NCBI RefSeq assembly: GCF_031851795.1
Contig: NZ_CP134696.1
Coordinates: 6,572,001 to 6,636,000 of the forward strand
Origin: Pontibacter sp. G13
Lineage (GTDB): Bacteria; Bacteroidota; Bacteroidia; J057
Direction of reading: 5' to 3'
DNA length: 64,000 nucleotides
In this document: piece after piece, positions 40,418-51,252 of the stretch
Numbering within the stretch: the first letter of the stretch is position 1
Layout of the letters: each line of letters opens with the position of its first letter
Made by a program: the position numbers and the translations under genes
Notes under the pieces: generated by a model
Told to the model about the DNA's origin: nothing
Database searches by the model: none
The model's input: the letters and a program-made list of their open reading frames with translations, nothing else

Positions 40418-41005
40418 ATGCGCAAATTCATCCAAGTCCTTCCCTTGTCTTTGGCTTTTGGCTGGTCCATTTTGTTCCATTTCCAGCCTGTTCAGGCCCA
40501 AGCTCCTTTGTGGGCGGCAGACTCGGGCTCGGTGGCTTTTGTGTCGGATGCGCCGCTTGAACTGATTTCCGCTAGCAGCAAAGAGGTGTCTGGCTTGATA
40601 TCCGTTGCCAATGGGGAATTTGCCTTTTCCATCCCGATCCGATCCTTTTTCGGATTCAACAACTCCCTGCAGCGGGAGCATTTTTTGGAAAACTATCTAG
40701 AGGAAGCCAAATTTCCGAAAGCTACCTTCAAAGGCCGGATCATCGGTCAGGTCAACTTAGATCGTGATGGAAGTTATCCCGTCCGTGCCAAAGGGTCCTT
40801 TTCGATCCATGGATTTGAGCAAGACCGGATCATTCCTGCGCTCATCGAGGTGAAGGAAGGAAAGGCGCATGTAAGCGCAGAATTCTCGCTGATGGTAGCT
40901 GATTTTGGCATTCACATCCCCAAAGTGGTCAGGAAGAAGATTGCAGAGGAGATACTAACCACCGTTGACATTGATTTTTTCCCACGTGCATCTATGGAGG
41001 AATAG
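40418..41005 (+). CDS. YceI family periplasmic lipid/quinone-binding protein (paralog A)
   Basis: A 195-residue protein with a signal peptide (about 1-28, VQAQA); start ATG 40418, with a TTG at 40403 as a longer option. The YceI-type lipocalin-like barrel shows NSLQREHFLENYLEEAKFPKATFKGRI and a SFSIHGFEQDR region. Family members bind polyisoprenoid lipids in the periplasm. It shares clear sequence with the second YceI gene at 48494 (EHF, KATFKG, LHG/IHG, KIAE). The kinase gene overlaps its 3' end by 20 bases, so they are likely co-expressed. Confidence 0.88.
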   Translation: MRKFIQVLPLSLAFGWSILFHFQPVQAQAPLWAADSGSVAFVSDAPLELISASSKEVSGLISVANGEFAFSIPIRSFFGFNNSLQREHFLENYLEEAKFPKATFKGRIIGQVNLDRDGSYPVRAKGSFSIHGFEQDRIIPALIEVKEGKAHVSAEFSLMVADFGIHIPKVVRKKIAEEILTTVDIDFFPRASMEE

Positions 41006-43874
41006 CTGGTTGTTGATCGGGACACTGTTGTGCCTGTGCCCAAACCTCCATGCCCAGACCCTTCCTTTTCATACCTACCTCGATGCACGCCGAGACTCCA
41101 ACTTTCAGGTAAAGTGTGTTCGGCAAGCTCCCAGTGGTCTTTTGATGTTGGGGACTGATGAGGGTGCCTTCTATTTCGATGGGACAGATGTCTGGCCGGT
41201 CGGAGGAGCCTGTACGTTGAATGAAGAAGTGGCAGATTGCATGTACTCCGAATCCAACGGGATGCTGTTGGCAACACCTACTGGTTTGTATGGATGTCAA
41301 CAGGATACATTTTTGCGCCCAGAGGATGCTAACGTCATTTTTCAGGATGATGCTGATCGGGTTTGGGTCGGTACCAATGGTCGCGGAGTGGTGCTGAAGG
41401 ATGCTGGCGAATGGAAGGAATTTGAGCGAATGCACGGGATGAAGGGGCTGGATGTCTCGGGAATTGCCCAAGGAAATGACGACCGAATTTGGATAGCCAC
41501 TGAAGAAGGCTTGCATGGAATCAATCGGGCAGGCGAAGATTGGGAAATGAGGTCCTTGTTTGAGGATTCCGGATTGCCGGATGTGATTCTGACCAGCTTG
41601 GTTGCGGACCTTGCTGGGAAATTGTTTATCGGAACTTTCGATCGAGGCGTTTGTGCCTATAATCCCAATGCCAATGAATGGCGATATCCAGCCGATCCTT
41701 GGACATTCGGAGAAATTACCTCCCTCTGGGTGGAAGGCAGAAGGCTCTGGGTCGGAACCAAACGGCATGGCCTCGTCCTGATGCATGCGGGAACCTTGGA
41801 GGTTCTGAGGCATGTGCCGCCCTCGAGATCATTCCCGGTACAGCATGTATTCGATATTTTTGGCGACAATCAGGGGAACCTGTGGGTTTCCGGTGCCAGA
41901 AAGGGCATCCTATGCCTACGGCCTGATTTGCTCCCGGTGGAAGATCACCAAGGAAAGCTTGCTGGCCCAGTTGAATCCGTCCTTGAGACTTCCGAAGGTT
42001 GGGTGTGGGTCGCCCAGAAACATGAGCTTTACCGGTTTCGGGTAGAGGAGGGAGCATGGCCGGAGCTAGAGGCTTTGCCCACCTATTGGGACGAGGAAAC
42101 GCTGGTCGTTTGCATGTATGAGCTGCCCGATGGGAATATGGTCTTGGGTACGGATGGTGCCGGGGTGTTTATTCTCGATCCACGTGGAAGGTTGTTGGAC
42201 CATCTGACGGAGCGAGACGGACTCGCCAACAATAGTGTGTTGCATATCGCGGCGGACGAGGAACATGTTTGGTTTGCCACCTTTGGAGGCTTGAGCAGCT
42301 TGCCATTGGGTTCTAGTTTTCCATTAAGAAAATCTCTGGCAACCAAGATGTCCCATTTTAAGGATTTGGGCTTGCACTACATCTATACCATTCTGCCTGA
42401 TTCAAGAGGCCGAATATGGCTTGGTAGCGTAGATGCCGGAGTGACAGTCTTTCAAGAGGGAAAGGTAAAACAGATCGGTGAGGAGTCTGGAATTGAGGCT
42501 CCAATCTATTCCATCTGCGAGGACAATGCTGGGACGATTTGGATGGGCGGGGAAGATGGACTTTATCGTTACCGTCAGGGGAAGTTGACGCATTGGAACG
42601 AAAATAACGGACTGGGAGAAGCGACTGTTTCCAGTGTGATGCCTATTCGTTCTGGAGAGTTGCTCGTAGTGCATTCCGAGGGAATCGACATGTTTGAGGA
42701 TTCCACGGAGTCGTTCGTTTCCCTAACAGAACAGATGGACCTGCTATCGTTTGATCCCAATCTCAATGTCGTGGCCAAAGGCAAAGGCTACCGCAGATGG
42801 GTGGGAAGCGAGTCTGGCCTTTATTTGCTTGACCCTACCTGCGAGAGGAAGATGGGGCAACCTCAGATGATATGGCGTGATATCCAGCTCTTTCTGGAAG
42901 AGTCGGTGGATACTTCCCATCAGCGATTTTCCTTCAATGAAAACCATCTCGCCTTTTCCTTCAAAGGCCTCTGGTATCGAGATCCCGATCATGTGGAATA
43001 TCGACACAGACTCATCGGTCAGGACATCGATTGGGTGGGAAGTCGGGAGTCGGTCGTCCAATATCCGCGTTTGCGTCCTGGTAGATACATTTTCGAGGTG
43101 CAAGGGGCTGTGCATGGGCAATTTCAGCATGCCGAAACCCTCACCTATACCTTCATCATCGGGAGACCCTTTTGGCAAACTCCCTGGTTTTGGGGATTAC
43201 TGATGGTCTTTGCTGGACTGGGAATCTATGCCTGGGTCAAATATCGAGAACGCCAGCTCGAACGAAAAAGCTCCCTGGAACGGGCGCATATTTCTTTCCA
43301 ATTGCAGACCCTCAAAAACCAGATCAATCCTCATTTTCTTTTCAATAGCCTCAATACCTTGGTGTCTGTGATCGAGGAAGATGAAGAGCTTGCGATCACC
43401 TATGTGAACCACCTCTCGGACTTGATGCGTGCGATGCTCACGGTCGAAGGATCTACCTTGATCCCCTTGAGGCAGGAGTTAGAATTGCTTGAAAAATATT
43501 CCTTTTTGTTGAAGCAACGTTTTGGCGAACACCTCAAGGTGCAGATATCGATTCCAGAAAAGGTCCTGAATACCTACTTGCCTCCTTTGACGCTACAAAT
43601 GCTCATGGAGAATGTGATCAAGCACAACGTGATTTCGTCTGCCAAGAAAATGGAGGTAAAGCTGGAATTCGTGGAAGATCAATGGCTGATCGTCGAAAAC
43701 CCCGTCAGACCCAAGAGAACGTCAGTCAAATCCACGGGAGTCGGTCTGCGAAATATCAAGGAGCGCTATCGATTACTGGGTAGATATATGGTAGATATCA
43801 CCCATACACAGTCGATCTTTAGAGTGCGAATACCCCTGATTCCCGAGGAAGAGGCGCTAAGGGTAGAAGAATAA
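40986..43874 (+). CDS. Beta-propeller sensor histidine kinase (LytS type)
   Basis: About 962 residues from GTG 40986, chosen because a signal peptide (ending LHAQ) begins there; a TTG at 40965 is possible. A periplasmic two-component-regulator propeller of WVGT/WIAT-type repeats spans about 30-620 (for example RVWVGTNGRGVVL, RIWIATEEGLHGI, RIWLGSVDAGVTV, TIWMGGEDGLYRY), followed by a Y_Y_Y-like Ig domain (about 640-725). One membrane helix (about 733-752) leads to a coiled linker and a His_kinase domain with His783 in NPHFLFNSLN, N box ENVIKHNV and G box GVGLRNIKERY. The likely partner is the LytTR regulator at 45868. Confidence 0.9.
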   Translation: MHLWRNSWLLIGTLLCLCPNLHAQTLPFHTYLDARRDSNFQVKCVRQAPSGLLMLGTDEGAFYFDGTDVWPVGGACTLNEEVADCMYSESNGMLLATPTGLYGCQQDTFLRPEDANVIFQDDADRVWVGTNGRGVVLKDAGEWKEFERMHGMKGLDVSGIAQGNDDRIWIATEEGLHGINRAGEDWEMRSLFEDSGLPDVILTSLVADLAGKLFIGTFDRGVCAYNPNANEWRYPADPWTFGEITSLWVEGRRLWVGTKRHGLVLMHAGTLEVLRHVPPSRSFPVQHVFDIFGDNQGNLWVSGARKGILCLRPDLLPVEDHQGKLAGPVESVLETSEGWVWVAQKHELYRFRVEEGAWPELEALPTYWDEETLVVCMYELPDGNMVLGTDGAGVFILDPRGRLLDHLTERDGLANNSVLHIAADEEHVWFATFGGLSSLPLGSSFPLRKSLATKMSHFKDLGLHYIYTILPDSRGRIWLGSVDAGVTVFQEGKVKQIGEESGIEAPIYSICEDNAGTIWMGGEDGLYRYRQGKLTHWNENNGLGEATVSSVMPIRSGELLVVHSEGIDMFEDSTESFVSLTEQMDLLSFDPNLNVVAKGKGYRRWVGSESGLYLLDPTCERKMGQPQMIWRDIQLFLEESVDTSHQRFSFNENHLAFSFKGLWYRDPDHVEYRHRLIGQDIDWVGSRESVVQYPRLRPGRYIFEVQGAVHGQFQHAETLTYTFIIGRPFWQTPWFWGLLMVFAGLGIYAWVKYRERQLERKSSLERAHISFQLQTLKNQINPHFLFNSLNTLVSVIEEDEELAITYVNHLSDLMRAMLTVEGSTLIPLRQELELLEKYSFLLKQRFGEHLKVQISIPEKVLNTYLPPLTLQMLMENVIKHNVISSAKKMEVKLEFVEDQWLIVENPVRPKRTSVKSTGVGLRNIKERYRLLGRYMVDITHTQSIFRVRIPLIPEEEALRVEE

Positions 43875-43999
43875 CGGCCTCCATATTCTCTTCTCTTTGT
43901 TGAAAGGTGCAAAATGTCGGATTGAATGCAGATTCGATGACAATTGTCTTTGTTTTGTGAATCCATGCTTCGTAACATGAGGTTACTAACTACTATCTC

Positions 44000-45706
44000 A
44001 TGGACGACCTCGCCAAATTCGCCAACTTGACAAACTCGCGCGTTCTTCAGTACCCAACCCTGCCGCCTCGAAATTTCTATCTACAAGATGAGATTTTCCG
44101 TCATTTCATGAGGCGACTTTCCCCCGCAGCTCAATCCTACATCGAAGCAAGTTGGGAGCTTCTCGGAGAGCAAGTCACCAGCTCCATGGATCGCTTGTCC
44201 CTAGAAGCTGACCAGAATGGGCCGACGCTCAGCCTTCGGGACCTTTACGGAGAGCCACATGAGCAGGTGCAATTCCATCCCTCCTATCATCAACTTATGG
44301 GAATGGCAGTCTCCAGTAATATGCTTCGGGCGAAATGGGAGCCTACAGCTAGATCTCAGCATCAAGGCAATCGGAATTTCCTCTCATTTGGAGGCTTCTT
44401 TCTCTTCTCTCAGGGGGAAGCCGGAATCGGATGTCCGCTTTGCATGACTGATGGCGCGGCAACTGTACTGGATCGATATGGCGATGAGGAAATGCGGGCG
44501 CGCATTATGCCTCAGATTTTTACTTCGAATGCGCAAGATTTTTTCAGCGGGGCCATGTTCATGACCGAAAAGGCCGGTGGATCAGATGTGGGAGCCAATG
44601 TCGTTCAGGCGATCTCACAGCCTGATGGGACCTACCAACTCTTTGGCGAGAAGTGGTTTTGTTCCAATGTCAATGCAGAGGTAATCTTGGCGTTGGCTAG
44701 AACCCCCGATTCTGTATCCGGTATCAGGGGATTGTCGCTCTTTTTGATTGAGCGCAATCGTCAGGATGGGACCCGTAATTGGCTTGGGATTCAACGACTT
44801 AAAGATAAGTTGGGCGTGAGGTCCATGGCAAGTGCGGAATGTGTGCTGAATGGGACGGAGGCTCGATTGATTGGAGAGGAAGGAGATGGTTTCAAACTCA
44901 TGGCTTCGATGGTCAATCTCTCCCGAATTTATAACTCGATGTCGGGATTGGCCCTCATGCGAAGAGCGATGATCGAGGTCTGGTATTTCCTGTCCGGCAG
45001 GATTTCTTTTGGCAAACCTGCAATGGATCACCCACTCATCAGAACCAAGCTGATGGATATTGGCGCCAATTACCTCGCCAACTTCTACTTGACATGGCAC
45101 ATGGTTGTGCTCTCAGAACAAGCGGAACAAGGCAATCTCGAAGCCATAGCCGAACTCCGTTTCCTTACTCCGCTGGCCAAAAAGACGGTTGCCGCAGATG
45201 CAGTCGAAATGATTCAGGCGTGTATGGAACTCATGGGAGGTATCGGCTATATCGAGCAGGGAATTATGCCCAAATTGATGCGGGATGCGCTCGTATTGCC
45301 GATATGGGAAGGCGCCAGCAATATCATGGTATTGGATATGTTGCGTGCCAGTGAGAAGTCTGAGGGATTGGATATCGCCTGTCAGCACCTTGCAAGGAGA
45401 CTGGCTAGAAATTCTGAAGTTCCTCATTTGGCGCTGGAATTCGATCAAGTCCGAACCTTATTTGGAGAGCTGGAGGAGCACCCCCAAGAAATCCGAGAAG
45501 CTTCATCTAAGCCTTTGTTTGAGGCATTTGCACGCATGTACCAGTGGAACCTCATGCGGAGATATCGAGATGAAACCAGTGTGAAATGGCTTAGGCCAGC
45601 TACGAAATATTGGCAGAAAAAACACTGGGAAAAGGAACTCAACCTCTTTGCACCTCCAAGTCGAGAGGATCTGGCCGATCTTTGGGGATGGATGATGGAG
45701 TCTTAG
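44000..45706 (+). CDS. Acyl-CoA dehydrogenase family protein (AidB-like)
   Basis: A 568-residue flavoenzyme. The long N-terminus (about 1-150) and MFMTEKAGGSDVGAN (about 190-204) resemble the AidB/adaptive-response branch rather than short fatty-acid enzymes. FAD-binding and dehydrogenase-domain motifs include GEKWFCSNV, LGVRSMASAECVLN, GEEGDGFKLMASMVNLSR and CMELMGGIGYIEQG. It could oxidise an acyl-CoA or act like AidB on alkylation damage. It sits between a sensor kinase and its likely regulator, an unusual place for it. Confidence 0.88.
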   Translation: MDDLAKFANLTNSRVLQYPTLPPRNFYLQDEIFRHFMRRLSPAAQSYIEASWELLGEQVTSSMDRLSLEADQNGPTLSLRDLYGEPHEQVQFHPSYHQLMGMAVSSNMLRAKWEPTARSQHQGNRNFLSFGGFFLFSQGEAGIGCPLCMTDGAATVLDRYGDEEMRARIMPQIFTSNAQDFFSGAMFMTEKAGGSDVGANVVQAISQPDGTYQLFGEKWFCSNVNAEVILALARTPDSVSGIRGLSLFLIERNRQDGTRNWLGIQRLKDKLGVRSMASAECVLNGTEARLIGEEGDGFKLMASMVNLSRIYNSMSGLALMRRAMIEVWYFLSGRISFGKPAMDHPLIRTKLMDIGANYLANFYLTWHMVVLSEQAEQGNLEAIAELRFLTPLAKKTVAADAVEMIQACMELMGGIGYIEQGIMPKLMRDALVLPIWEGASNIMVLDMLRASEKSEGLDIACQHLARRLARNSEVPHLALEFDQVRTLFGELEEHPQEIREASSKPLFEAFARMYQWNLMRRYRDETSVKWLRPATKYWQKKHWEKELNLFAPPSREDLADLWGWMMES

Positions 45707-45856
45707 GCTACTACATCCTTTTCCACAAAGTCAAATAGGAGCTCTGGGGTTCTTCCTATCGGGGTAAACTGGGGTTTCAGGATGAAAAACAAGCGGTTGA
45801 GAGGCCCGATTGCCAATTGCAACCTCAATCTTTCGGCAATATTCTGAATAGGTGAT

Positions 45857-45864
45857 TATCTTTG
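45857..45864 (+). promoter_or_regulatory. Candidate -7 element abutting LytTR gene
   Basis: TATCTTTG is an exact TAnnTTTG match three bases before the preferred ATG 45868. TTTC at 45831-45834 could serve as an imperfect -33 at 22-base spacing. It suggests a leaderless transcript. Confidence 0.35.
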
Positions 45865-45867
45865 GAT

Positions 45868-46629
45868 ATGAAAATTGTCATCATAGAGGACGAACCAACA
45901 GCTGCTAGACGGCTAGAAAAGTTGGTTAATCAACTCGCCCCAGAAATTGAAGTTTTGGCCTCCTTGGACAGTGTTGAGTCCTCTGTCTCTTGGCTACAGG
46001 CTAATGCCCAACCAGATGCCATGATGTTGGATATTCAACTGGCAGATGGAGACAGCTTTGAGATTTTCAGGGAAGTGGACATCCAATGCCCAGTCATCTT
46101 CACGACTGCTTTCGACGAACACGCCCTAAAGGCATTTAAACATAACGGCATCGATTATTTGCTCAAGCCGATCAAAAAGGAGGAGCTTTCCGATGCATTA
46201 GGGAAACTGCAAGCTTGGACACCGGGAGATCAATCACCCGCTGATACCTACAAAGCATTGCTGGATGCTCTGCCTGCCAAAGATCAAGCCTTCCAAAAAA
46301 GATTGGTGATCCGATTTGGACAGCATATCAAGGCCATAGAGGTGTCTGAGGTCGCCTATTTTTACATCGAGTCTAAGGTGACGATTCTTCGGACCTTTGA
46401 AGGACGTGATTTTCCAGTAGATCAAAACCTAGATCAATTGGAGCAAATCCTCGATCCCGCCAAGTTTTTCCGGATCAATCGCAAATGCATTGTCAACGTC
46501 GAGGCGATCGACCAGATGTATACCTATTCCAAGTCCCGTGTGAAATTGACCCTAAACCCAGCCTTCTCTGAAGAAACCATCGTCAGTTCAGAGCGGTCCC
46601 CAAAGTTCAAAATTTGGTTGAAAGGATAA
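45868..46629 (+). CDS. LytTR-type response regulator
   Basis: 253 residues from ATG 45868; a TTG at 45862 is the longer option. The receiver domain (1-120) has IIEDEP at the start, phospho-acceptor Asp55 in MMLDIQLADG and the KPIKKEEL lysine. A LytTR DNA-binding domain (about 150-250) follows: RLVIRFGQHIKAIEVSEVAYFYIES, FRINRKCIVNVEAID. It is expected to pair with the propeller kinase at 40986. A terminator follows 26 bases after the stop. Confidence 0.93.
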   Translation: MKIVIIEDEPTAARRLEKLVNQLAPEIEVLASLDSVESSVSWLQANAQPDAMMLDIQLADGDSFEIFREVDIQCPVIFTTAFDEHALKAFKHNGIDYLLKPIKKEELSDALGKLQAWTPGDQSPADTYKALLDALPAKDQAFQKRLVIRFGQHIKAIEVSEVAYFYIESKVTILRTFEGRDFPVDQNLDQLEQILDPAKFFRINRKCIVNVEAIDQMYTYSKSRVKLTLNPAFSEETIVSSERSPKFKIWLKG

Positions 46630-46655
46630 ATCCTAAGATCCATACAGCGCATATT

Positions 46656-46685
46656 AGCCTACTGATTTGATCGGTGGGCTTTTTT
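46656..46685 (+). terminator. Terminator after LytTR gene
   Basis: An 11-bp stem (46656-46666 with 46670-46680, G-T pairs allowed) with TTG loop and TTTTT tail. Confidence 0.85.
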
Positions 46686-46925
46686 GTAAACTAGCTTTAG
46701 GTGCTTGATTTGCTGCTCCAGATGTTTCGGTCAGGAAAAATGAATGACATGAATCGGTGCGAATTTCTGAGATCTATGAATGCTGAGAACATATTCAGCG
46801 GGTGTAATCGCCAACTGGGAACCCTTTTTTTTCAGAGTTATGCTGAAATTCACTTTTTGAAGTATCATGTTGAACGGTAATCCTAAATGGTTTGATCTTA
46901 GGGCAACGTGATTCATGCTAGTACT

Positions 46926-47360
46926 ATGAAAAAAACCGCGTCTTATCTTATCCTGATCGTTCTCATTGGGTTGGGCATCGCTGGCTACGTCGGCTATCAG
47001 ATGTACAATAAACCCCATGCAGATCTTGCCTCTGAACAGCCAGATGCTGTCCTCTCAGCAACGGAATTATTTTCCGCGTATGAAGCGGATGAATCTACAG
47101 CCAATGCCAAGTATTTGGATAAGCGGCTGGAAGTCAATGGTACAGTTCAGGAGATTTCCCCAACACATGATGGGGGATATGTAGTTGTCTTGAAAGAAGC
47201 CGATGCCATGTTTGGAATTGGTTGTTCATTTCTCCCCGATCAAGCGGATGAAATTGGGAGCCTCAAAGCGGGTATGGAGGTGACCATTCGTGGAATTTGT
47301 ACGGGTATGTTGATGGATGTGAATTTGGTGCGATGTATTCTTCAAACAGCTTCAGAATGA
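46926..47360 (+). CDS. OB-fold tRNA_anti-like membrane-anchored protein
   Basis: 144 residues from ATG 46926 (a GTG at 46908 would add six). An N-terminal membrane helix (about 5-25) precedes an OB-fold domain of the tRNA_anti-like family (LFSAYEADESTANAKYLDKRLEVNGTVQEI ... GYVVVLKEADAMFGIGCSF ... AGMEVTIRGICTG). Such proteins are periplasmic with unknown ligands. The ATGA overlap with the next gene marks it as the first gene of the cytochrome/YceI operon. Confidence 0.85.
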   Translation: MKKTASYLILIVLIGLGIAGYVGYQMYNKPHADLASEQPDAVLSATELFSAYEADESTANAKYLDKRLEVNGTVQEISPTHDGGYVVVLKEADAMFGIGCSFLPDQADEIGSLKAGMEVTIRGICTGMLMDVNLVRCILQTASE

Positions 47361-48079
47361 TTTTATCAGCCTACTCACCTCGAAATCTGCTCATCATCGG
47401 ATTTGCGGTGATGATTTGGTCTGGATGTCAACACGATCCCGTGACACCCTCTGATCCCACTCCGGAAGTAGATCCTGAAGGGCCAGAGCTGTGTGATCCG
47501 GATACGATGTATTATGACGACCACATATTGCCGATTTTAGAGCGACGAGATTGTATTGCCTGCCATACCGCTTCCAACAATCTTGGGGGAGTTGTCCTGA
47601 CTTCCTATGATGAATTGATCCAGAGCGATATTGTGGACGTGAACGATCCCAATAGCAGCGAGTTGATACGTGTGGTGACTACCAATGACCCCGACGAAAA
47701 AATGCCGCCAGCTCCAGATACGCCACTTAATGAGCAGGAAGTCAACACACTCCGTACTTGGATTGGGCAGGGTGCATTAAATATCGCTTGTACCAGCGAG
47801 GAGTGCGATGTTTCAGATGTTAGCTTTTCCAGTGATGTGGAGCCGATTATTCAGAACCGCTGTGAAAGTTGCCACAGAGGTGCCGCGCCTCAAGGGGGAG
47901 TTCTCCTAGATAGTTATTCCTCCATTGCTCAATATGCCCGAAATGGTCGTCTCTGGGGGGCAATTAACCATGATACAGGGTTTGAGCCCATGCCTCCGGG
48001 CGGTCCCGACGAGAAATTGTCCGATTGCGAGTTGTTGACTATCAAGCAATGGATTACGGAAGACGCACCACAAAACTGA
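47357..48079 (+). CDS. Di-heme cytochrome-c-like lipoprotein
   Basis: 240 residues starting at ATG 47357, overlapping the OB-fold gene by four bases. A lipoprotein signal (Cys24 in IWSGC) anchors it. Two heme-binding motifs, CIACH (66-70) and CESCH (169-173), each sit in a repeat of the c-type cytochrome domain (LPILERRDCIACHTASNNLGGVVLTSYDEL; VEPIIQNRCESCHRGAAPQGGVLLDSY), and each repeat ends with MPP. It probably carries electrons in the periplasm or at the outer membrane. Redox partners are unknown. Confidence 0.88.
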   Translation: MILSAYSPRNLLIIGFAVMIWSGCQHDPVTPSDPTPEVDPEGPELCDPDTMYYDDHILPILERRDCIACHTASNNLGGVVLTSYDELIQSDIVDVNDPNSSELIRVVTTNDPDEKMPPAPDTPLNEQEVNTLRTWIGQGALNIACTSEECDVSDVSFSSDVEPIIQNRCESCHRGAAPQGGVLLDSYSSIAQYARNGRLWGAINHDTGFEPMPPGGPDEKLSDCELLTIKQWITEDAPQN

Positions 48080-48083
48080 GTTC

Positions 48084-48467
48084 ATGAACCTTCTTAAGTC
48101 TACGATTAATTGTTGTCTAGCGCTTTGCGTCCTCTCTCTGGCTGGTTGTTATTATGACAATGAGGAAGAGCTTTACGGAGGTTTGCCTGAAGCTCCCTGC
48201 GATACCACAGATGTCTCCTACACGGCGGATATCGTTCCCATTCTGGAGGATGACTGCATTGTTTGCCACAGTGGAAGTGTTCCTTCAGCTGGCATTTCCT
48301 TGGAAACCTATGCCGATGTAAAGGTACAGGCCGACAATGGGAGATTGGTAGGAAGTATCGCGCATCTACCGGGGTTCGATCCGATGCCTCAAGGTGGAGC
48401 CCAATTACCTGATTGCGAGGTCAACCAGGTGACAGCTTGGGTGAATGCCGGCGCTTTGGACAATTAG
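48084..48467 (+). CDS. Mono-heme cytochrome-c-like lipoprotein
   Basis: 127 residues with a lipobox (Cys22 in LAGC). One CIVCH motif (58-62) in the same repeat type as the upstream gene (VPILEDDCIVCHSGSVPSAGISLETYADVKVQADNGRLVGSI), ending DPMPQGG. Close similarity to half of the upstream protein suggests duplication. It starts five bases after that gene. Confidence 0.88.
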   Translation: MNLLKSTINCCLALCVLSLAGCYYDNEEELYGGLPEAPCDTTDVSYTADIVPILEDDCIVCHSGSVPSAGISLETYADVKVQADNGRLVGSIAHLPGFDPMPQGGAQLPDCEVNQVTAWVNAGALDN

Positions 48468-48493
48468 AATTTACACATGCAAAACCTACGTTT

Positions 48494-49045
48494 ATGAAAA
48501 CTCTCTTCTTGTTTGTTGGATTGGTCATGGCGACCTGTTCCCTACAAGCTCAAAAAATGATGACCCGAACTGGTCACATCTGGTTCTTTTCCGAAACACC
48601 AGTTGAAAATATCGAAGCCCATAACAATCAGGTGTCCAGTGTGTTGGATGGCGAAAGTGGCGCGCTCGTATTTGCGGTCCTGATGAAAGGATTCCAATTT
48701 GAAAAGGCGTTGATGCAGGAGCATTTCAACGAAAAGTATGTTCACTCCGACAAGTACCCTAAGGCTACCTTTAAGGGAAAAGTTGTGGATATGTCTGGCG
48801 TTAATCTGTCTGAAGATGGAACCTATGAGGTAGAAGTAGCTGGGACAATGAACCTTCATGGGGTGGATCAGGATATCAAAGCTCCGGGTCAGATTGTGGT
48901 CAAGGATGGTAAAGCTACCGCGAAGGCAGACTTTCCCCTTACCTTGGAGGATTACAAGATCAAAATCCCCGGTGCTGTCAAAGATAAAATTGCGGAGACC
49001 ATCACCATCCATGTGGACGTGGCCTACAACTCCGGTAACCCCTGA
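48494..49045 (+). CDS. YceI family protein (paralog B)
   Basis: 183 residues from ATG 48494, with a signal peptide (about 1-20, LQAQ). YceI barrel: MQEHFNEKYVHSDKYPKATFKGKV, MNLHGVDQDIKAPGQI, ATAKADFPLTLEDYKIKIP. In Bacteroidota this gene type is often found beside cytochrome-like lipoproteins and DUF5777, as here. It probably binds a lipid or quinone in the periplasm. Confidence 0.9.
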   Translation: MKTLFLFVGLVMATCSLQAQKMMTRTGHIWFFSETPVENIEAHNNQVSSVLDGESGALVFAVLMKGFQFEKALMQEHFNEKYVHSDKYPKATFKGKVVDMSGVNLSEDGTYEVEVAGTMNLHGVDQDIKAPGQIVVKDGKATAKADFPLTLEDYKIKIPGAVKDKIAETITIHVDVAYNSGNP

Positions 49046-49060
49046 TCCTAACGTCCTAGC

Positions 49061-49990
49061 ATGATGACTGTTCAATTCTGGAAGGAAGCCAAATGGCTTC
49101 TATTTTTGCTGTTGTGTTTTCCGTCTTCCACTTTCGCCCAAGATCCCGATAGCTTGCTGAGCATGTTGGAGGATATGGAGCCTGAGCGAATCGATTACAC
49201 TATCGCCACCTTCAAGGGTACCCGTCTTGGAAATGGGCATTCCATTGAGACTCCTGCCCCCGGTGTGCTGGAGTTTATGATCGAGCATAGATTCGGTTCG
49301 ATCGGGGATGGCCCATCCGAACTTTGGGGACTAGATCAGGCGTTTATTCGATTCGGGTTTGGGTACGGAATCACAGATTGGCTGACAGTAGGGGTTGGTC
49401 GAAGCAATATCCAAAAGACCTATGATGGCTATGTGAAGCTCAAGTTCCTACGCCAAAGCACTGGAAAACGTGTGATGCCGTTGACGGCTGTCTATGTGGG
49501 AGGCATGGCGATCAATACCTTGCCTTGGCAAGATCCGGACAGAACGAATTATTATTCTTCTCGACTCTCCTTTACACATCAATTGCTGCTAGCCAGAAAG
49601 TTTTCTGAAAGACTTTCCATACAGCTAATGCCCACGTTGGTTCACCGGAATCTCGTTGAAACCGTGGAGGATGAAAATGATGTATGGGCCATTGGGGTAG
49701 GGGGAAGATTCAAGCTGAATGGAAGCCTCGCTGTCACTGCCGAGTACTATTATCTTCTGCCCGGAAAGACTGCGGATGACTTTGTGAACTCGCTGACTAT
49801 TGGTCTCGATATTGAAACCGGGGGACACGTATTTCAGCTGTTGTTTACCAATTCATTGGGGATGACGGAGAATATCTTTATTCCCACCAATCAAGAAAAA
49901 TGGCTGGATGGCGATATCCATTTCGGATTCAACCTATCCCGCGTATTTACCATATCGAAGAAAAATCGCATTCCAAGCGATTGGAATTGA
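49061..49990 (+). CDS. DUF5777 outer-membrane beta-barrel protein
   Basis: 309 residues with a signal peptide (about 1-27, TFAQ). Family motifs: EFMIEHRFGSIGDG, GLDQAFIRFGFGYGITDWLTVGVGRS, KTYDGYVKLKFL. The strand pattern and Asn-ended C-terminus fit an outer-membrane barrel. Function unknown. Last gene of the operon; a terminator follows. Confidence 0.87.
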   Translation: MMTVQFWKEAKWLLFLLLCFPSSTFAQDPDSLLSMLEDMEPERIDYTIATFKGTRLGNGHSIETPAPGVLEFMIEHRFGSIGDGPSELWGLDQAFIRFGFGYGITDWLTVGVGRSNIQKTYDGYVKLKFLRQSTGKRVMPLTAVYVGGMAINTLPWQDPDRTNYYSSRLSFTHQLLLARKFSERLSIQLMPTLVHRNLVETVEDENDVWAIGVGGRFKLNGSLAVTAEYYYLLPGKTADDFVNSLTIGLDIETGGHVFQLLFTNSLGMTENIFIPTNQEKWLDGDIHFGFNLSRVFTISKKNRIPSDWN

Positions 49991-50074: not shown

Positions 50075-51151
50075 TTATTGCTCCAAAAATAGGTCAGGAT
50101 GGAAGGTCGCCCATGCAAACCAGTATCCGACATATCCTTCCAATAGCGTCAACTGCTTCCCTGTACGAGGGCCCGAAACGCAATGGCCCATGAGATCCCA
50201 CCGGTTTCCTTCCTCATCTGCCATGACTACTTTTCCGCCATTTGGGACAGGCGAAAAAACCAATCTGTCTCCCTCTAGGACGGGTTTGAAGGCTATGGCA
50301 AAATCTCTATGGTGACTCCCGACTACCACCACTTCCTCTGGGCCGACAATTTCCTGAAAGACCTTGACGCCCTCTCCAAATACCTCCATGGGATATGCCT
50401 TAGAGTGGGATTTGGGACCACTCTTGGCTGCTACCACACCGAATACACGAACTTTTCGATCCACTCTCGGGTCATCGTGATTGATCGGAAAGGGGAGTTT
50501 AAGATGATTTTCCCGATAATCGAAATATGGGTAAAAGTTGTACTCATTGTCATACCCAGTATTGGCTGAGATGATGGAGGTTTCTGGGTACATTCGCTTC
50601 CATTCCCCCCAAGAGGTCATGACTAATGGATACATGTCTGGCATTTGGCGGACTTGGGAGCCTTGCACGCATTCCCCTCGCATCTGGGACCAATTGCTAT
50701 CTGTTTCCCGATCATAGGGAATGACATTGCTTTGGTGTAGAAGTCCTGAGATACCAAAGGTGGAGACTTTTCCGTCAATGACTCTGCTCCAGGCGGTACC
50801 GGTTCCAGTAAGTGGACAATAGATGATGGAAATAGGCTCTCCGGCGAGGGTATCATTGATGATCTCGTGCCAATCTAGCATTTTGACGGGATAGGCTCTC
50901 GCTTGGCCATTGAGTTCAATGCCCAGCACATGTTCTTCATCGGCTTGATATGATCCTAATACCAGTGGATCGATGGGAGGGAGATTCAGCGCTTCAATTC
51001 CGTCTTTGCCAACTCCGCCGTCGACGATTTCATCCAAAGGGATGAGCCAATCTAATTGCCAGGAAGGAGTATCAGGTTGGACAGATTCTGGCGTGCAAGC
51101 AATTAAACAGGTACATACCACGGCCATTCCCAGCCTATGGAAAACATTCAT
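50075..51151 (-). CDS. DUF3179 domain lipoprotein
   Basis: 358 residues from ATG 51151 (a longer frame to 51238 adds unlikely residues). A lipobox (Cys19 in LIAC) is followed by a DUF3179 domain with conserved EINDTLAGEPISIIYCPLTGTGTAWSRV, FGISGLLHQSNVIPYDR, SNWSQM and the C-terminal GHCVSGPRTGKQLTLL. The ordered Cys, His and Trp residues hint at metal or heme binding, but function is unknown. It converges on the cytochrome operon. Confidence 0.88.
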   Translation of the reverse strand: MNVFHRLGMAVVCTCLIACTPESVQPDTPSWQLDWLIPLDEIVDGGVGKDGIEALNLPPIDPLVLGSYQADEEHVLGIELNGQARAYPVKMLDWHEIINDTLAGEPISIIYCPLTGTGTAWSRVIDGKVSTFGISGLLHQSNVIPYDRETDSNWSQMRGECVQGSQVRQMPDMYPLVMTSWGEWKRMYPETSIISANTGYDNEYNFYPYFDYRENHLKLPFPINHDDPRVDRKVRVFGVVAAKSGPKSHSKAYPMEVFGEGVKVFQEIVGPEEVVVVGSHHRDFAIAFKPVLEGDRLVFSPVPNGGKVVMADEEGNRWDLMGHCVSGPRTGKQLTLLEGYVGYWFAWATFHPDLFLEQ

Positions 51152-51216
51152 CTCTGAAGTAGTTGAGGGTGGATGAAGGGATTCGTTGGGGCGAATCCTT
51201 GGGAATGGATTGCTAC

Positions 51217-51252
51217 AAAAAATGAAGGGAGGAAACATTGTTTCCTCCCTTC
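51217..51252 (-). terminator. Terminator of susC-susD operon
   Basis: A perfect 13-bp stem (51224-51236 with 51240-51252); on the minus strand a run of Ts follows (51217-51222). It lies between susD and the DUF3179 gene. Confidence 0.85.

Follow-up and report, generated by a model that had tools for sequence, protein, structure and literature searches.

In Pontibacter sp. G13, whose genome measures 7.67 Mb and whose close protein relatives are Bacteroidota, a secreted YceI lipocalin (YceI-A), a LytS-type kinase bearing a propeller sensor and a LytTR response regulator are proposed here to form a three-component system regulating the adjacent envelope redox operon, a reading to which we give a probability of roughly 0.55. 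According to this proposal, YceI-A would be exported to the periplasm carrying a lipid or an isoprenoid such as menaquinone, and would act, on the periplasmic side, together with the propeller/Y_Y_Y domain of the kinase, to whose gene its own is linked and with which it may be in contact; the kinase would phosphorylate the LytTR regulator, which in relatives would bind the two half-sites found with a period of 21 bp ahead of the operon; the operon products (two c-type cytochrome lipoproteins, an OB-fold protein, a second YceI called YceI-B, and an outer-membrane barrel) would probably make up a device for redox reactions in the envelope or for the handling of quinones or lipids. The wiring is well supported in the relatives; the ligand, a direct contact between YceI and sensor and the redox function we infer, a redox or quinone/lipid-shuttling role of the module being suggested by its domains.

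All the genes concerned lie on the forward strand of the window (the whole stretch of 64,000 nucleotides that was analysed) between positions 40418 and 49990, in the order listed in Table 1. An earlier note on this DNA, made without database searches, had named the YceI pair, the kinase, the LytTR regulator, the OB-fold protein, the cytochromes and DUF5777 at these positions, and Pfam concurs with it, except for the mono-haem cytochrome, which found no match in the Pfam scan of the window and is recognised by its CIVCH motif; the AidB-type acyl-CoA dehydrogenase lying between kinase and regulator went unmentioned there, and is probably outside the module. The two YceI proteins, described in that note as paralogs, show 39% identity across some 160 residues, and the mono-haem cytochrome is 42% identical to one half of the di-haem cytochrome. 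As read from the sequence, the kinase gene begins with a GTG inside yceI-A, the two genes overlapping by 20 nt; the OB-fold frame is open from a GTG at 46908, the start given in the table having been picked by eye. A DUF3179 gene (50075-51238, reverse strand, 264 bits) is convergent with the operon.

Table 1. Features of the locus, with positions in the window and the basis of each assignment
Feature	Position	Strand	Basis
YceI-A, YceI lipocalin (secreted; sensor-linked clade)	40418..41005	+	Pfam YceI 43.1 bits (cut-off 23.7)
Reg_prop propeller + Y_Y_Y + TM + LytS-type His_kinase (PF06580)	40986..43874	+	Pfam, ORF
AidB-type acyl-CoA dehydrogenase, between kinase and regulator	44000..45706	+	Pfam
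LytTR response regulator (receiver + LytTR)	45868..46629	+	Pfam; LytTR tree
Intrinsic-terminator-like hairpin, 11 pairs + T run, between lytR and operon	46656..46680	+	sequence
OB-fold protein (PF12869, tRNA_anti-like), N-terminal membrane anchor	46926..47360	+	Pfam 93.2 bits
Di-haem cytochrome c lipoprotein	47357..48079	+	PSCyt1 66 bits; CIACH, CESCH at residues 66, 169; lipobox WSGC
Mono-haem cytochrome lipoprotein	48084..48467	+	lipobox LAGC, its Cys followed by acidic residues (CYYDNEEE); CIVCH at residue 58
YceI-B, operon YceI lipocalin	48494..49045	+	Pfam 51.4 bits; outside A clade
DUF5777 (PF19089), predicted 12-stranded outer-membrane barrel	49061..49990	+	Pfam 316 bits, full-length match; model

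The block encoding the OB-fold protein, the cytochromes, YceI-B and DUF5777 is a conserved Bacteroidota operon. DUF5777 is present in 39 of 40 relatives and in 115 of the 296 genomes of a phylum sample; COX1, tried as a marker of aerobic life, occurs in 285 of the 296 and was dropped as uninformative. When the neighbourhoods of 80 DUF5777 loci were surveyed (flanks of at most 10 kb), YceI was found in 70, the mono-haem cytochrome in 67, the OB-fold protein in 52 and the di-haem cytochrome in 47, followed by the propeller kinase (16) and LytTR (15), the next cluster reaching 12. The independent distribution of the parts, which the earlier note had named as evidence against a module, is thus not what was observed; the regulator is optional, though, most of these 80 operons being without a nearby kinase. 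In some kinase-less loci (L073, L089, L093, L096, L108, L110 and others) a sigma-factor-like gene (cluster 7, labelled ECF sigma from a reading of the sequence by eye and not from a profile result) lies near the operon, and possibly represents an alternative route of regulation; several of these loci also carry either a cluster 8 gene, for which Pfam gave no match in L073, or one for Lipoprotein_15 (PF03640, L110). Two Aquimarina genomes (L098, L106) have a second DUF5777-YceI block in the opposite orientation, about 6 kb from the first, and in the relatives L188 and L189 the first di-haem motif is CATSGCH or CAKSGCH (CX4CH), not CxxCH.

Kinase and regulator have the composition of a LytS/LytTR system, a His_kinase domain (PF06580) on one side and a receiver-LytTR protein on the other; since the genome holds 15 LytS-type kinase, 17 LytTR and 6 YceI matches, their pairing is not to be assumed. 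In a quick tree of 42 LytTR rows (SH-aLRT support only), the window regulator falls within the kinase-adjacent group, together with the regulators of L147, L148, L160 and L164 (support 97) and apart from four other LytTR proteins of the same genome; these companions directly follow YceI-A-linked kinases, so that the window LytTR is likely, judging from sequence relationships, to be the partner of the kinase, as had been suggested. In the other 30 kinase-adjacent rows the regulator starts at most 400 nt from the kinase, and the dehydrogenase therefore looks like an insertion that, within this set of loci, only the window has.

Evidence for control of the operon comes from the promoters of relatives. 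A LytTR-type site is expected to consist of two repeats of 9-11 nt with a spacer of 11-13 nt upstream of the target; the YpdB site of E. coli, described in PMC4847170 as GGCATTTCAT-N11-GGCATTTCAT, has a repeat period of 21 bp. Direct 9-mer repeats at a spacing of 21 were present in 8 of 23 promoters, about 1 being expected, while none of the other spacings from 17 to 24 gave more than 2; in fixed-length promoters of kinase loci, six of them from one genus (f15/g25), they occurred in 10 of 28 (mean 1.8 in shuffled sequences, with a maximum of 8 in 300), no spacing but 21 in the range 14 to 30 giving more than 3. Promoters of kinase-less DUF5777 operons, used as controls, carried such repeats in 4 of 57 cases (62 promoters minus five on too-short contigs). 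The half-sites, two TTCCCGTTCAGCA-like elements 21 bp apart, were built into a model trained on the 28 promoters, with which 18 of these same 28 scored at least 18, vs 4 of the 62 kinase-less ones. When the family or group of each locus was omitted from training, the top-scoring site, with the entire locus and both strands considered, lay in the operon promoter in 16 of 28 cases (chance about 0.33), and did so at least once in 9 of 16 groups.

Other putative sites were seen away from the operon promoter. L051 has a further one 130 bp before YceI-A, and in L046 (at 15174) a very strong LytTR-type repeat lies just past lytR, the 900 nt that follow it containing no listed ORF. Among the 37 matches to the core pattern listed from eight genomes, downstream genes include a plastocyanin-type cupredoxin (G210; L204 1597-2211) and a thioredoxin-like gene (G236; L199 800-1282, reverse strand), too few as secondary LytTR targets for a regulon to be claimed.

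In the window itself no LytTR-type site was found upstream of the operon or of yceI-A: no repeat matching at 8 or more of 11 positions with a spacing of 20-22 precedes the operon, a single poor one lies before yceI-A, and the core pattern stands at background in the window's genome (5 matches vs 8 in the reversed control). Control of the window's own copy of the operon is for this reason presumed, and the regulation by LytTR suggested in the earlier note has putative sites to go with it in the promoters of many relatives and none in the window. It is thus a substantial possibility, somewhat short of even, that in this genome the regulator has ceased to control the operon, the neighbourhood being simply inherited and the kinase/LytTR pair serving other targets; the inserted dehydrogenase points the same way, as does the terminator-like hairpin before the operon (hairpins of this kind are about as frequent in shuffled sequence, 13 found vs 10.3 expected). 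L039, the nearest relative by YceI-A, reaches only 8.3 in the leave-family-out scan. Against a loss of control, the whole gene arrangement has been kept, as has the LytTR ortholog, which is 56% identical to that of L147, a locus whose promoter carries a strong site. A more general objection to the three-component reading is that the genes of the module may only be co-inherited.

The assignment of YceI-A to the sensor half of the proposed three-component system relies on its own clade and neighbours. Its YceI domain and its fold place it in the YceI family: the predicted model (pLDDT 90.5) has as best solved matches the YceI of P. syringae (Z 19.1), BcnA (18.8) and TT1927b (17.6), and a sequence search of solved structures with the YceI-A profile gave no match at E 0.001. 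In 15 of the 16 sensor-bearing DUF5777 loci YceI-A adjoins the propeller sensor, the exception being L111, where it heads the operon. In a tree of 90 YceI proteins the sensor-linked ones form a single set of 17 rows (support 100/98), of which 15 were labelled by sensor adjacency and the others are L101 and L111; YceI-A of the window falls inside this set and YceI-B outside. The clade has its own signature, an inserted Gly79 together with Gln85, found in 43 of 43 A rows; the first position is a gap in every one of the 101 B rows, and the second is Met in 97% of them.

This linkage was examined again with A/B and sensor profiles built from the first 80 loci, in a test set obtained by a separate search of 295 genomes of the class with the YceI-A profile; 40 regions from the best 41 matches listed (own window left out) were typed by profile score as 26 A-type and 14 B-type. 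A propeller sensor lies beside 24 of the 26 A-type YceI genes vs none of the 14 B-type, in regions around the best matches listed that may include related or identical species; linkage of a binding-protein gene to a sensor gene, as expected of a three-component system, is thus the rule, the two A-type genes without a sensor (L157, L163) having other neighbours. No fusion of YceI to a sensor appeared among the matches listed from the profile search, whose open frames are all shorter than 300 aa.

The 24 YceI-A-linked sensors differ in their output domain, which is His_kinase in 19 and SpoIIE-like in 5, so that YceI-A goes with the sensor half irrespective of the output; SpoIIE was confirmed by Pfam in L074, L092 and L101 of the first 80 loci, and in the sensor tree (like the LytTR tree, a quick one without bootstrap, with the window kinase on a long branch) the SpoIIE sensors are a single group nested among the YceI-A-linked ones. 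LytTR adjoins every one of the 19 sensors of the His_kinase type, and operon genes are downstream or adjacent in 16 of these loci; of the remaining three, L149 has YceI-B only, and L148 and L162 show no operon genes in the fetched stretch. The coupling of YceI-A to the LytS-type kinase noticed in the window therefore holds in relatives, where kinase, LytTR and YceI-A go together.

It might be argued that YceI-A is an effector and no part of the sensor, that is, a second YceI copy expressed by the system and placed beside the kinase through co-regulation. Its fold and family are indeed those of ordinary YceI carriers, and in L111 an A-clade YceI, the only YceI present, opens the run of cytochrome and DUF5777 genes, the kinase lying beyond DUF5777; we regard this as unlikely, nevertheless, given the invariant signature of the clade, the overlap of its gene with the kinase gene in the window, and the SpoIIE-type sensors, whose YceI-A lies away from the operon (DUF5777 was found in only one, L151, of the five fetched regions).

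Of the operon products, DUF5777 is predicted to be a 12-stranded barrel (pLDDT 87.6), its model matching the solved structures of KdgM (Z 18.0), FapF (17.8), NanC (17.6) and the COG4313 channel (16.7); its invariant residues include His76 and His256. A sequence search of solved structures with the DUF5777 profile gave no match at E 1, the same kind of search with the di-haem cytochrome returned only two proteins with designed names at weak E values, and no paper was found under the name DUF5777 (PF19089) in the literature searched, subscription papers being mostly outside its scope. Multihaem conduits span membranes, and the one and two haems of the present cytochromes are too few for that. 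A trans-outer-membrane electron conduit made of the barrel and a surface-exposed cytochrome is therefore improbable, despite the predicted outer-membrane type of the barrel and the conserved acidic start of the mono-haem family (lipobox in 44 of 69 members and, among these, D at +4 in 35, E at +6 in 32 and E at +7 in 28), which resembles the Bacteroidota surface lipoprotein signals (LES) described in PMC5080379 and lacks the K or polar residue of those tested, the YYDNEEE start having neither K/Q nor S.

The proposed three-component system has partial counterparts among known ones. XylFII-LytS, TorT-TorS and LuxP-LuxQ, as presented in PMC6321045, likewise pair a separate periplasmic ligand-binding protein with a membrane sensor kinase, the kinase of XylFII being also called LytS; here, in contrast, a YceI lipocalin would take the place of the binding protein and a Reg_prop propeller that of the receptor, a pair known by gene linkage. 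The E. coli pairs YpdA/YpdB and BtsS/BtsR (PMC4847170, PMC10653868) share the combination of LytS-type kinase and LytTR regulator, and YpdB the 21 bp repeat spacing, but sense through a 5TMR-LYT membrane domain instead of a periplasmic propeller. As for the operon, the YceI lipocalin BcnA is reported to protect against lipid peroxyl radicals together with the cytochrome b561 LcoA, and isoprenoids or ubiquinone-8 are often present in YceI structures (PMC9113575); by analogy with these ligands and with BcnA and its cytochrome, YceI genes being linked to a cytochrome gene here too, the operon may handle quinone or lipid redox chemistry, with c-type cytochrome lipoproteins and an outer-membrane barrel in place of b561, which was not seen among the neighbour clusters present in at least 6 of the 80 loci.

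More tentatively, a YceI lipocalin loaded with lipid or quinone could be a dedicated co-receptor for propeller sensors, of either the LytS kinase or the SpoIIE-type phosphatase kind, by which Bacteroidota would sense the isoprenoid/quinone state of the envelope and tune accordingly a system made of surface cytochrome and outer-membrane barrel. No earlier description of a YceI co-sensor, or of a lipid-carrier/sensor pair, was found in the literature searched, again with subscription papers mostly outside scope. YceI proteins are widespread and poorly understood, and a clade devoted to sensors would bring one of them into signalling; the known pairs of binding protein and kinase would be joined by one with a lipid carrier, and the uncharacterised DUF5777 operon gains a point of entry, together with a predicted binding site that is directly testable.
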